From NCBI GenBank assembly GCA_024711125.1, contig JANJTM010000072.1:1-37826 (forward strand): a DNA stretch of 37,826 nucleotides, given 5' to 3'. Both the position numbers and the translations under genes were made by a program. The stretch is from Rhodothermales bacterium. Its GTDB lineage: Bacteria; Bacteroidota; Rhodothermia; Rhodothermales; UBA10348. Of this stretch, positions 21,090-37,826 are shown piece by piece. Every line of letters begins with the position of its first letter. The first letter of the stretch is position 1. A model generated the notes under the pieces. The model saw only the letters and a list, made by a program, of their open reading frames with translations, was not told the origin of the DNA and searched no databases.

Positions 21090-21260
21090 GTGCGGAAGGC
21101 GCCCTAGAGTCCCGAAGGGTGACAGAGGGTTCCGAGAGTGCGGATGGGCGCCCGAGGGTGAGGGTGCCGAAGGGTGCCCGAGGCTGCCGAGAGTGCGGAT
21201 GGGCGCCCGAGGGTGCCGAGGGTGCGGATGGGCGCCCGAGGGTGCCGAGGGTGCGGAAGT
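21090..21260. repeat. 29-bp tandem repeats, about five units, partly degenerate
   Basis: Units begin GTGCGGA at 21090, 21138, 21193, 21222 and 21251. The last intervals are exactly 29 bp; the earlier ones (48 and 55 bp) hold degenerate or partial units. The unit core is GTGCGGATGGGCGCCCGA followed by GGGTGCCGAGG. GGGCGCCC inside it is self-complementary. There are no unique spacers, so this is not a CRISPR array. Confidence 0.8.
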
Positions 21261-21261
21261 G

Positions 21262-21403
21262 GGATTTCGGCCGCTATGCGATGTATTTGGCCCAAAAAGC
21301 GGGGGAATATGTCCTTTTTGGGCCGTTTTTCGATGTTATACCCCCAAAAATCGGGCAAATATGTCGACTTTCGGCCGGTTTTTCCAATCCTACCCCCGAT
21401 GCG
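21262..21403. repeat. 52-bp tandem repeats, about 2.7 diverged units
   Basis: GGCCG recurs at 21269, 21321 and 21373, exactly 52 bp apart. AATATGTC recurs at 21306 and 21358, again 52 bp apart. Each unit pairs a T-rich stretch with a C-run and then A/G-rich sequence. Divergence between units is considerable, so the array is old or under weak constraint. Confidence 0.75.
21289..21330 (+). terminator. Candidate intrinsic terminator after the permease genes
   Basis: GGCCCAAAAAG (21289-21299) and CTTTTTGGGCC (21314-21324) form a perfect 11-bp stem with a 14-nt loop. TTTTT at 21326-21330 follows on the plus strand. It lies about 235 nt after the second permease and inside the 52-bp repeat array. 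The A/T-rich inner stem also allows function on the other strand. Confidence 0.5.
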
Positions 21404-21491
21404 ACAGAAGGGAGCGAGGGCACTTGCATGGTCCCGGGGCCGCCGGGCTGGCACAGAAGGGAGCGAGGGCACATGCCTGGTCCCGGGGCCG
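21404..21491. repeat. 49-bp direct repeat pair
   Basis: A 39-bp segment beginning ACAGAAGGGAGCGAGGGCAC recurs at 21404-21442 and 21453-21491 with two mismatches. The period is 49 bp and the remaining 10 bp are also partly alike. It is unrelated in sequence to the 29- and 52-bp repeats beside it. Confidence 0.8.
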
Positions 21492-21525
21492 TCGCGCTTG
21501 GCTACGAGACGCAGGCCGTAGTTTA

Positions 21526-21640
21526 CCCTGCACATTCCCCCCTTGCATTGTGACCACGACACACCTTGCATTTCAACCACAATCCACCCTGCATTCTAAC
21601 CACGAACGACCTTGCCTTTTAACCACTGCTTGGTTAGAAT
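21526..21640 (+). repeat. Iteron-like array of 23-bp repeats upstream of the AAA/DUF4143 gene
   Basis: Four units start at 21541, 21564, 21587 and 21610, each exactly 23 bp apart. All fit CCTTGCATT-(3)-ACCAC-(6), with the core best seen in the third unit as GCATTCTAACCAC. A truncated unit precedes them at 21526. An inverted core, TGGTTAGAAT (21631-21640), is a perfect 10-bp reverse complement of ATTCTAACCA (21593-21602) in unit three and forms the -10 region of the promoter. The spacing of about two helical turns puts the sites on one DNA face, which suggests cooperative protein binding. Confidence 0.85.
21612..21640 (+). promoter_or_regulatory. Sigma70-like promoter of the AAA/DUF4143 gene embedded in the last repeat
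   Basis: TTGCCT (21612-21617) and TAGAAT (21635-21640) are 17 bp apart. The -35 box is the TTGCAT-like part of the fourth 23-bp repeat. A 6-bp inverted repeat, TAACCA (21620-21625) and TGGTTA (21631-21636), lies in the spacer and -10 box. A start site six or seven bases downstream falls at the ATG (21647), predicting a leaderless mRNA. Confidence 0.6.
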
Positions 21641-21646
21641 TCCGCC

Positions 21647-22885
21647 ATGTACCGGCGACATCTTACCGAACGACTGAGGACAGCACTCGCTGACACGCGC
21701 GTCGTTTTCCTGCAGGGCGCGCGCCAAACGGGCAAATCGACGCTGGTTAGAGGCCTTGTGGAGGAGTTGGGCGGCACATACCTGACGCTCGACGACCCGG
21801 CTGTGCAAGCGACGGCCCGCGAGGACCCCTACTTCTTCGCTTCCAGCACGCGCGGATTGACCGTCATCGACGAAGTGCAGTTCGTGCCCTCCCTGTTCCC
21901 CGCGATCAAGCGCGTAGTGGACAACGATCCGGCACCGGGCCGCTTCCTACTGACCGGATCGGCATCGGTCCATCTGCTTCCGACCATATCAGAGTCGTTG
22001 GCAGGGCGCGTCGAACTGATGCAACTGGGGCCGCTCACGCAGTCCGAAATCGAGGCCACGTCGCCCGAATTCGTGACCCGATTGTTCGATCCGGCCTCCT
22101 GGTCCATCGCGGAATTCCGCCTCGATCGGCGGGACATCTGCTCGCGCATTCTGCGCGGCGGTTTTCCCGAGGCCGTTGCCCGGACGTCGAGCGAACGCCG
22201 CGCCGATTGGTTCGGCAGCTACATCTCGACCATTCTGAGGCGCGACATCCGCGATCTTGCCCAGATCGAGGGGATCGCCGACCTGTCGCGCCTGGTTTCC
22301 CTCCTCGCAGCGCGGGTGGGCGGTCTGATGAACCTCTCGGACCATTCGAGATCCGTCTCCATTCCGTACTCGACCCTGCGCCGGTACCTCGGCCTGCTCG
22401 AAGCAACGTTCATGGTTCAGCCACTCCCGGCGTGGTCGTCGAACCTGGGCAACCGGCTGCTCAAGTCGCCGAAGGGCTACCTGGTGGACTCGGGGCTCGC
22501 AGCTTCCCTACGCGGCGAGACCGACGCCGACGTCCTGGCGTTGTCAAGCTCGCTCGGGCCGCTGCTCGAGAACTTCGTCCTGGCCGAGATCAGGCAGCAA
22601 CTGACGACAAGCGCAGTGCGCGCCGAGGCCTTCCATTTTCGAACCACGGCAAACGCCGAGGTCGATATCGTGCTCGATTCTGCGGCATCGGGTGTGGTCG
22701 GAATCGAAATCAAGGCCTCCTCCTCGGTCGGCCGCAGCGACTTCTCGGGCCTTCGCTCCCTGGCCGACAACGCCCGGGGGCGGTTTACGGGAGGCTACAT
22801 CCTCTACCTCGGTGACCGCGCCCTGCCCTTCGGCGACCGCTATTGGGCGATTCCGGTTTCGGCCCTGTGGGTGGAGCACGACTAG
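21647..22885 (+). CDS. AAA family ATPase with DUF4143 (PD-(D/E)XK-like) C-terminal domain
   Basis: This 412-residue protein belongs to the widespread AAA_14/DUF4143 ATPases, whose biological role is not established. Walker A is GARQTGKS (24-31), Walker B is LTVIDE (71-76), and LLTGSAS (101-107) is the sensor-like segment. DUF4143 follows with GGFPEAV (171-177) and YISTILRRDI (192-201). A helical region with a likely winged-helix character (about 210-260) comes before the C-terminal part, where E309, AEVD340 and E354-I-K356 line up with a PD-(D/E)XK nuclease core. The gene sits between two envelope gene sets, is preceded by a dense repeat island and ends 5 nt before a glycosyltransferase gene. 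The context suggests an inserted unit with its own regulation. Confidence 0.9.
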   Translation: MYRRHLTERLRTALADTRVVFLQGARQTGKSTLVRGLVEELGGTYLTLDDPAVQATAREDPYFFASSTRGLTVIDEVQFVPSLFPAIKRVVDNDPAPGRFLLTGSASVHLLPTISESLAGRVELMQLGPLTQSEIEATSPEFVTRLFDPASWSIAEFRLDRRDICSRILRGGFPEAVARTSSERRADWFGSYISTILRRDIRDLAQIEGIADLSRLVSLLAARVGGLMNLSDHSRSVSIPYSTLRRYLGLLEATFMVQPLPAWSSNLGNRLLKSPKGYLVDSGLAASLRGETDADVLALSSSLGPLLENFVLAEIRQQLTTSAVRAEAFHFRTTANAEVDIVLDSAASGVVGIEIKASSSVGRSDFSGLRSLADNARGRFTGGYILYLGDRALPFGDRYWAIPVSALWVEHD

Positions 22886-35751: not shown

Positions 35752-37826
35752 CTACTTCACTACCGTGAGCTGGCTCGAGCGGGTGCTCACGCCGGCGCCG
35801 TCTTCGACACGCACGCGCAGCACGTACACGCCTGCGCCCAGGCCGTCGACCTCGATGCGGGCCTCGCGGTCGGCGCCGGCCGAAACCTGTCCGAGCGAGA
35901 CCTGCTTCACCTCGCGACCGAGCACGTCGTAGACGCTGAACGTCACGTCACCGGCCTGCGGGAGATCATAGCGGACCGTCGCCGCCGATCGCACCGGGTT
36001 CGGGTACACGGCATGCAGCGTGAGACCGCTCGGCAGCCCGTTCTCGGGCGTCGTCGCGACCGACGAGGCCACGGACGCCGTGAAATCGGCTGCGGAAACC
36101 GTTGTCTTGGCGCCGCCTACGAAACTGAGCTGGGCGCCCGACACCGATACCACGCCGTGCGCGACGTCGGCGACGGCTCGCACACGGACACGAACGATCT
36201 CACCGGCTCCGTGGGCGGCGCGATCCGCGCCCTTGCGCGTGAAGGCCGCGTCGGTGGTACCGGTACCGGGGTGGGTATAGACCATCGTCAGCAGGTCCCC
36301 GTCATCGAGGAAACTGCCGGCTTCGACGGAGACGAGTTCGAGCGCCGCCCGATCGATCGTGAGCGAGAGCGCGATACCCAGCAGGTCGTTCCACGGTCCC
36401 GTCGAAAGCAGGAGCGAGGCCTCCTGTCCGCGCTGGAGCGACCCCAGGACGAACTCGACGCCCGAGGCGCCCTTTCCGGCGATGGCCCGAGGGGCCGGAG
36501 GGGCCGTGCAGCCCGTAGCGGCCGTGTGGGTCTGGCCGAAGTTGAATCCGACCACCAGGAAGTCCTTCTCGTCGATGAGACCGTCGCCCGTCGCGTCGAC
36601 GAACGACATGGGGAAGTCGGCCGACGACGAAGACCCGCCCCACGGCGAAAAGGCCTTCGCCCCCCACGAAACGTCGAACCCGCCGGCACGCGCGGCACCC
36701 GTCTCCTTCCAGTACGTGCCGAGCGGAAGCACGTCGGCCACGGCGACCGTACAGTTGTTGTCGAGGTCGCCGGGCCAGACCCCGCCGATGACGGTCGTGC
36801 CGCTCGTGTTGGCGAGCGCCGTCCCGGCCCCGCTGCCCTGCAGCGCGAAGAGATCCGACAACGAGAAGGTGACGTCGCCGGGCGTCGCCCCGTCGGCGAC
36901 CGTGAAGTCGAACGCACCGATGATGCCGGTGCCGTCGACGCCGGTCGACGAGGACCGCGCGAAGCCGAACGCGATCGAACCCGTCGGATCCTCCGTCGCG
37001 TTGGGCGCGAGCGTGTTGGCCCCGAGCAGGGCGCCGTTGGCGATCGAACCCGCATCGTATGCGACCCGGTCGTCCTCGTACGCGAGATCGCCGGATAGCC
37101 CCACGAGATCGACCATCGTATTGCCCTGCAGGTTCAGCGTGAACGTGTCGTTCGGCCACACCAGCGTCGATCCGGCCGACGGCACGACCTCCGGGTCGTC
37201 GCTGTTGTCGCCGATGCCGTCGCCGTCCGAATCGGACCATTCGGACGCGTCGTTCGGGAAGGCGTCGGAATTGTCCCCCACCCCGTCACTGTCGGAGTCG
37301 GCCCACTCGGTGTCGTCGTTCGGGAACGCGTCCGAGGCGTCGGGATGCCCGTCGCCGTCGGTGTCGGGCCCGGGGCCGATCTGCGTGCTCTCGGCGCCCC
37401 CGTCTCCGTTCCGGAGGTGGTTGTAGAAGACGTAGATTCCGGTCATGCAGTGGTCGCACCCGGAAGCCCCGGCGTCGTAGATGCGCGCGCCGGTCCCGGG
37501 GCTGGTGAACTGGACCCGGGACTGTTCGGAGTAGGTCCCCGCCACGTCGCCCAGCAGTTCGTTCCAGCCGTTGGCCTCCTCCCACCGTCCGATGCTGACG
37601 GTGAGTGCGTTTCCGGTCGGACCCCAGATCTGCGCGAACGAGGTGGCCGCGCCGGTATTCAGGCCCCACCGGCCGAACTTGAAGTAGTCGGCGTTGGTGA
37701 AGCTGTACGTACCGTTGGGCACACACTCGGCTTCCGGACGGTTCTGGCCGTAGATCAGCTCTTGGGGTGCGTACAGTACGGCTTCACGTGGCATGGTCGC
37801 GACGAGTTGGGCCGTGGCGACCGGCG
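35752..37826 (-). CDS. Secreted protein with thrombospondin type 3-like, cohesin-like and dockerin-like modules and a C-terminal sorting domain, 5' end cut by the window
   Basis: The frame is open from the stop at 35752 to the right edge, about 691 residues, so the true start and signal peptide lie beyond the window. From the N-terminal side there is an unrecognised segment, then Asp-rich repeats of thrombospondin type 3 form (DTDGDGHPDASD, DSDSDGVGDNSD, DSDGDGIGDNSD; DNA 37365-37185). A cohesin-like module follows (37160-36800), then a dockerin-like pair (GDLDNNCTVAVADVL and DATGDGLIDEKDFLVVGFN, 36775-36535). A second cohesin-like module (36460-36070) resembles the one in the neighbouring gene, and a C-terminal sorting domain (VYPNPVRSAATVRYDLP) ends the protein. 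Calcium-dependent folding and surface attachment or secretion are likely. The combination of cohesin- and dockerin-like modules in one chain suggests self-assembly, which is inference. Confidence 0.82.
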   Translation of the reverse strand, partial: PVATAQLVATMPREAVLYAPQELIYGQNRPEAECVPNGTYSFTNADYFKFGRWGLNTGAATSFAQIWGPTGNALTVSIGRWEEANGWNELLGDVAGTYSEQSRVQFTSPGTGARIYDAGASGCDHCMTGIYVFYNHLRNGDGGAESTQIGPGPDTDGDGHPDASDAFPNDDTEWADSDSDGVGDNSDAFPNDASEWSDSDGDGIGDNSDDPEVVPSAGSTLVWPNDTFTLNLQGNTMVDLVGLSGDLAYEDDRVAYDAGSIANGALLGANTLAPNATEDPTGSIAFGFARSSSTGVDGTGIIGAFDFTVADGATPGDVTFSLSDLFALQGSGAGTALANTSGTTVIGGVWPGDLDNNCTVAVADVLPLGTYWKETGAARAGGFDVSWGAKAFSPWGGSSSSADFPMSFVDATGDGLIDEKDFLVVGFNFGQTHTAATGCTAPPAPRAIAGKGASGVEFVLGSLQRGQEASLLLSTGPWNDLLGIALSLTIDRAALELVSVEAGSFLDDGDLLTMVYTHPGTGTTDAAFTRKGADRAAHGAGEIVRVRVRAVADVAHGVVSVSGAQLSFVGGAKTTVSAADFTASVASSVATTPENGLPSGLTLHAVYPNPVRSAATVRYDLPQAGDVTFSVYDVLGREVKQVSLGQVSAGADREARIEVDGLGAGVYVLRVRVEDGAGVSTRSSQLTVVK

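Follow-up and report, generated by a model that had tools for sequence, protein, structure and literature searches.

We describe an array of direct repeats that lies directly before the gene for an AAA_14/DUF4143 ATPase in a 37,826-nucleotide contig of a Rhodothermales bacterium (JANJTM010000072.1; this whole stretch is called the window below). A conserved cis-array of this kind, a possibility raised in the initial annotation, is present upstream of DUF4143 ATPase genes in several phyla, and we find that its core sequence is matched to the gene and not to the host. We put at roughly 0.65 the probability that the array is an autoregulatory operator of the ATPase gene, a standard part of most main-clade loci of this family (catalogued in PADLOC as PDC-S01), and that the ATPase binds the array and occludes its own promoter.

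The array is built into the predicted promoter of the ATPase gene

The window array consists of four units in exact 23-bp steps that span 21541-21632 (Table 1), with the start positions given in the initial annotation. The TTGCATT...ACCAC core proposed there holds for its ACCAC half, which is present in every unit, but the TTGCATT half is not identical in all four; the exact core common to the units is YTGCMTTnnnACCAC, with CTGC in unit 3 and TGCC in unit 4. A promoter match, TTGCCT-17 bp-TAGAAT, is in register with the array, and both this promoter, with its -35 box in unit 4, and a perfect 10-bp inverted copy of part of the core covering the -10 box were found where they had first been read. 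Together with unit 4, the inverted half-site makes a palindrome, TTTTAACCA-CTGCT-TGGTTAGAA. The same layout is found in the relatives L006 and L008 (such labels denote individual loci), and L008, which carries a close relative of the window gene, has palindromic units such as AACCACTGACTGGTTAG. Because close relatives use palindromic units, we take the window's inverted half-site to be the other half of unit 4. What this locus contains, then, is what we take to mark an operator array: repeated sites that overlap the promoter and are conserved in relatives.

The chain score of the window array is 10.5, against a maximum of 4.5 among 3,000 dinucleotide shuffles. In the whole 3.79-Mb genome, the core is found as the four copies of this array and two single sites, the latter being the level of a reversed-pattern control. 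The end of the -10 box and the ATG at 21647 are 6 nt apart, so the messenger RNA of the window gene is likely, on this promoter match, to be leaderless; L037 has a -10-like box that ends at the same distance from its ATG.

Arrays recur upstream of DUF4143 genes in several phyla

We collected homologues from the phylum of the window's host, from plasmids of named organisms and from viral-contig collections, oriented the loci and compared their upstream DNA (a search of genome contigs with one single protein had given only three relatives). In a gapless period scan of 120 non-redundant loci, a period of 22-24 or 44-46 appears in 35.8% of upstream regions. The same periods appear in 0.9% of downstream regions, in 0% of regions inside genes, in 0/600 shuffles and in 0/97 upstream regions of other genes, these control genes coming from three plasmids. 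By a more sensitive unit-chain score, the share of the main clade with arrays is 83%, compared with 1.2% of shuffles and 7.3% of downstream regions; when other spacings are scored on the identical DNA, mostly 1-9% reach the threshold, the exception being the half-period set, in which the same signal is contained. Chance repeats are ruled out by the shuffles and by control regions of several kinds.

For a larger tally we used 145 non-redundant loci and counted 22/23-bp arrays that adjoin the start codon: they are present at 58 of 71 main-clade loci and at 12 of 74 loci outside it. The periodic repeats of 22-24 bp that the initial annotation proposed to look for upstream of other DUF4143 genes are therefore clearly there, with near-zero controls. 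The TAACCA motif it named for that search is not itself conserved across the loci, the core differing by subfamily. Array hosts include Actinomycetota (Planobispora, Mycobacterium), Bacillota (Ruminococcus) and Pseudomonadota (Tateyamaria, Sulfitobacter, Rhizobium, Agrobacterium, Rhodoferax), and short or palindromic forms are found at two loci of Thermus (Deinococcota; L104, L189). No archaeal loci are among the plasmid matches listed.

As a separate observation, inverted repeats replace direct arrays at the same place in several subgroups of other clades (L024, L028, L029, L068, L070, L071 and L073; L128, L136, L137 and L142); examples are CGTGAATGATTATCATTCA or CCTTGCAT...ATGCAAGG, directly 5' of the ATG.

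Spacing, core and promoter register

The arrays have between 2 and 9 units (the highest number in L022), spaced by 22 bp (94 intervals) or 23 bp (47) and, two skipped units excepted, by no other distance; the last core lies a median of 31 bp from the ATG. Adjacent units agree at 70-92% of positions in the 13-bp core, a figure favoured by the way in which units were chosen, and at 31-55% in the spacer. This low spacer identity argues against recent duplication, and we could rule out recent tandem duplication for most arrays, whose spacers are near random while their cores are conserved; the arrays of L016, L022 and L153 look recently expanded. The consensus core of the family, TTACAATTAGCCG, reads on the same strand as the gene in 53 of 58 loci, and its variants include TTTCAATTGGTCG, TGACAATCAGCCG and TTGCATTnnnACCAC.

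The register with the promoter seen in the window is found elsewhere. A TTGACT-17-TATACT promoter lies inside the array in L113 (Ruminococcus) and in the viral contigs L127 and L140, and similarly registered -35 and -10 boxes are present in L011, L012 and L109. Counted from the first base of the -35 box to the first base of the -10 box, the distance is 23 bp and so matches the array period.

The core follows the protein and not the host

Which molecule might read such an array? The window genome has three DUF4143 paralogues with three unlike arrays, whose cores are TTGCATTnnnACCAC, CTGCAAAAGGCCA and ATTGCAnnnGACGG, and the core TTTCAATTGGTCG is common to two alphaproteobacterial loci (L108, L184) and to L011, which comes from the same order as the window. 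Genome-wide, the motif TTTCAATYRGTCG is confined to the arrays in four genomes of this order. When a broader motif is allowed, the isolated single sites that we read lie away from arrays and look like chance matches, several of them inside long reading frames. A genome-wide regulon is ruled out, the motif being found essentially at the arrays alone. Genes next to plasmid loci vary from locus to locus, and no regulator gene recurs among the annotated neighbours, as far as short loci and an incomplete plasmid annotation can show. Because paralogue arrays differ, related proteins share cores across phyla, the motif is restricted to arrays and neighbours vary, the reader of the array probably travels with the DUF4143 gene.

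Among these neighbourhoods, the Sulfitobacter locus L184 (1201-3615) stands out: its DUF4143 gene and array immediately precede the gene for a restriction endonuclease and the qatA gene of a Qat anti-phage system.

The protein combines a predicted winged helix with a nuclease-like domain

The window protein scores above the cut-offs for AAA_14 (PF13173) and DUF4143 (PF13635), the two domains of PDC-S01, and matches the profile of that system (PDLC04790) over its full length, with 513.7 bits across residues 1-409; the profile is matched by 60/60 aligned relatives as well. Its conserved motifs are intact, namely Walker A (G24-K30) and the further residues named in Table 1. The AlphaFold model, with a predicted local distance difference test score (pLDDT) of 93.5 and a predicted template-modelling score of 0.93, has an ATPase domain, a winged helix (helices within residues 210-253, then a wing) and a C-terminal domain.

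Searched by sequence alone, no solved structure matches the protein well over its full length. By fold, residues 1-290 of the model come nearest to the archaeal ATPases Paby2304 (2qen, Z 16.4) and Sso1545 (2fna, Z 15.4), with a root-mean-square deviation of 4.2-4.3 over 250 residues; identity to them is 18-19% and the nuclease-like C-terminal domain falls outside the alignments. NLR and CED-4 structures match in fold with Z 13-14 over about 240 residues, the ATPase, helical and winged-helix fold of STAND/NLR proteins being found in the predicted model too, and ORC/Cdc6 structures and Avs5 filaments are among the proteins of close fold. Modelled alone (pLDDT 85.5), the C-terminal domain matches the PD-(D/E)XK nucleases Can2, Card1 and McrC with Z 8-10. 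On these models, the product of this candidate defence gene is predicted to join a STAND/ORC-like ATPase to a winged helix and to a nuclease domain of the PD-(D/E)XK-like type.

The initial annotation was right that DUF4143 ATPases have no agreed function, but the family is already catalogued as a candidate phage-defence system. The PDC-S01 description (PMC12988326) presents an ATPase fused to PD-(D/E)XK, ranks the system as the fourth most common defence system in prokaryotes (29,494 bacterial and 9,986 archaeal occurrences), and treats its anti-phage role as a candidate one without experimental validation. Its passages on PDC-S01 mention no cis-array, whereas the window locus has one. In Thermus, the DUF4143 gene TT_P0211 is 6.6-fold up when a plasmid and Argonaute are both present (PMC4406477).

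Motif divergence and protein divergence

We compared motif with protein divergence in a sliding-window partial Mantel test with tree-simulated nulls; linked sequence co-evolves through common descent too, and the tree-based null is intended to absorb this. Once overall protein divergence is accounted for, residues 248-265 are the stretch that motif divergence follows most closely (P about 0.01 for 52 loci, and 0.01-0.05 once five more are included, making 57). In sequence comparison, it is thus suggestive that motif divergence follows the recognition helix and wing. Covariation of single residues was too noisy for contact residues to be named.

Other features of the window

Table 1. Positions of the array, promoter and protein features, and of one further gene, in the window.
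Feature	Position	Strand	Basis
Array unit 1, CCTTGCATTGTGACCACGACACA	21541..21563	+	repeat analysis
Array unit 2, CCTTGCATTTCAACCACAATCCA	21564..21586	+	repeat analysis
Array unit 3, CCCTGCATTCTAACCACGAACGA	21587..21609	+	repeat analysis
Array unit 4, CCTTGCCTTTTAACCACTGCTTG; -35 hexamer inside	21610..21632	+	repeat analysis, promoter match
Predicted -35 box TTGCCT	21612..21617	+	consensus match
Perfect inverted half-site TGGTTAGAAT	21631..21640	-	exact reverse complement of ATTCTAACCA (unit 3, 21593-21602)
Predicted -10 box TAGAAT	21635..21640	+	consensus match only; ends 6 nt 5' of ATG
AAA_14/DUF4143 ATPase gene, 412 aa, PADLOC candidate PDC-S01	21647..22885	+	Pfam AAA_14 + DUF4143; PDC-S01 profile
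ATPase domain, residues 1-135; Walker A GARQTGKS (24-31), D75, E76	21647..22051	+	Pfam, conservation, AlphaFold model
Predicted winged helix, residues 210-264; recognition helix 241-253, wing ~257-264; proposed array reader	22274..22438	+	AlphaFold, covariation peak
C-terminal PD-(D/E)XK-like nuclease domain, residues 272-412; E338, D340, E354, K356 conserved	22460..22882	+	conservation, model, fold matches
680-aa protein with Por secretion C-terminal sorting domain	35752..37794	-	

The 680-aa protein, through its Por secretion C-terminal sorting domain, hints at a host in or close to the Bacteroidota. Between the permease gene and the array, the stretches 21112-21257 and 21404-21498 hold a G-rich minisatellite, whose unit is 29 or 55 bp, and two direct repeats of 49 bp. 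Just 5' of the array and unrelated to it, a dispersed repeat of about 140 bp (21248-21390) holds the inverted repeat CCCAAAAAG / CTTTTTGGG and has at least 25 or so further copies, with 68-82% identity, across contigs of the window genome.

A model of autoregulation and its alternatives

How might these elements work together? We propose for every ATPase a private site of about 13 bp, present in 2-9 copies set 22-23 bp (about two helical turns) apart, which cover the promoter or adjoin it and reach as far as the start codon. The ATPase would bind the units through its winged helix, and adjacent ATPase modules would interact at the spacing of two helical turns. Bound ATPase would then block RNA polymerase; in the window, the -35 and -10 boxes themselves lie inside sites. 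Depletion of the ATPase, its ATP state or its engagement elsewhere would free the promoter, and more of the ATPase-nuclease would be expressed. The ATPase fits the part of binder in having a winged helix of its own, in the way that motifs follow the protein and not the host, and in a motif divergence that tracks the recognition helix and wing. Because arrays recur in related genes and differ between gene copies, the protein probably reads its own DNA tag.

Several observations weigh against autoregulation by the ATPase. By the chain score 13 of the 71 main-clade loci have no array, nor do most loci outside the clade have a direct one; the motif is on the opposite strand in L033 and a few weakly matching loci. 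Two arrays stand without a DUF4143 gene. One of them (L151, 4455-4489 of G039:C4) closely resembles L013 in its units, has no DUF4143 gene within 7 kb and is probably a relic of gene loss. The other (L153, 2951-3097 of G071:C60) has at least eight near-identical 23-bp units, is interrupted by a run of N and has no DUF4143 gene nearby; it lies upstream of a gene that, judged from its translation alone, resembles a TonB-dependent receptor. The covariation peak is modest and fell when five loci were added, and because residues 318-337 give another peak just as large, the covariation stays suggestive only. Finally, the winged helix of STAND proteins is often regulatory and not DNA-binding.

The main alternative to autoregulation is that the array is chiefly a working part of the system, a platform for assembling the ATPase-nuclease, for keeping it inactive (sequestered) or for licensing it, and that promoter control is incidental. 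The protein is close in fold to STAND/NLR ATPases and Avs5 filaments, which act as oligomers; its nuclease residues are conserved; and the nine units of L022 go beyond the needs of simple repression. We nonetheless consider a platform unlikely as the main role, given that the array always adjoins the start codon and is in promoter register wherever a promoter can be recognised.

A separate transcription factor, encoded by the host or by a neighbouring gene, could instead bind the array and control the ATPase gene. The nearest regulatory precedent we found is RptR, a small dimeric regulator that cooperatively binds three direct repeats over the -10 box, represses its own promoter and controls a restriction-modification island, the RRDM defence island (PMC12255303). 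In both cases direct repeats cover the -10 box of a promoter that serves defence or candidate defence genes, but RptR is a separate small protein with 9-bp repeats, whereas the reader proposed for the window is the ATPase-nuclease itself, with units at 22-23 bp. We find a separate regulator rather improbable: no regulator gene recurs among the annotated neighbours of the loci, and a host factor would not give unlike paralogue arrays in one genome together with cores common to related proteins across phyla.

The array might also belong to a mobile or replicating element with the gene as its cargo, and be the end, the target or an origin-like site of that element. Orc1/Cdc6 proteins, which combine an ATPase with a winged helix, and plasmid Rep initiators bind repeated sites near their own genes, a likeness extended here by the iteron-like spacing and by the ORC/Cdc6 fold matches; furthermore, many homologues are on plasmids (342 records) or beside transposases. 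Against this, the arrays lie upstream and hardly ever downstream (about 1-2%), so they do not form a pair of element ends. Many loci are chromosomal. L011, L012 and L004 lie on megabase-size contigs, and the window array lies in a 37.8-kb contig of an 81-contig assembly, beside permease and glycosyltransferase genes. One host can have several unlike arrays, no association with an origin or replicon was seen (no test of origin function was made), and a megablast search with one plasmid locus returned conserved flanking genes and no array-plus-gene cassette elsewhere. We regard an element site as very improbable.

Equally remote is a leader in the messenger RNA that controls translation: arrays do adjoin the start codon, and a Shine-Dalgarno-like sequence precedes just 6 of the 54 array genes but 11 of the 15 control genes taken from one plasmid. 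In the window and in L037, however, a -10-like box this close to the ATG (6 nt) would leave the array untranscribed, and the window region folds only weakly better than shuffles (z -2.0).

Returning to an array that the ATPase itself occupies, a more speculative version, which we hold to be doubtful, makes PDC-S01 a two-part system of a STAND-like ATPase-nuclease and a private array that the enzyme must occupy. The array would keep the enzyme in an inactive assembly and gauge its free amount, and pulling the enzyme off, for example by phage DNA or loss of ATP, would derepress the gene and release the nuclease.

We found no reports of arrays upstream of DUF4143 genes in the open-access literature; most subscription journals and all bioRxiv preprints lay outside this search, so the novelty of the arrays is provisional. 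A conserved, paralogue-specific cis-array would be a first biochemical handle on PDC-S01, as it predicts a DNA ligand, offers a reporter ready for use and has its own specificity control built in. If the two-part arrangement is true, a self-addressed cis-array would be part of the working machinery of a candidate defence gene that ranks among the commonest.
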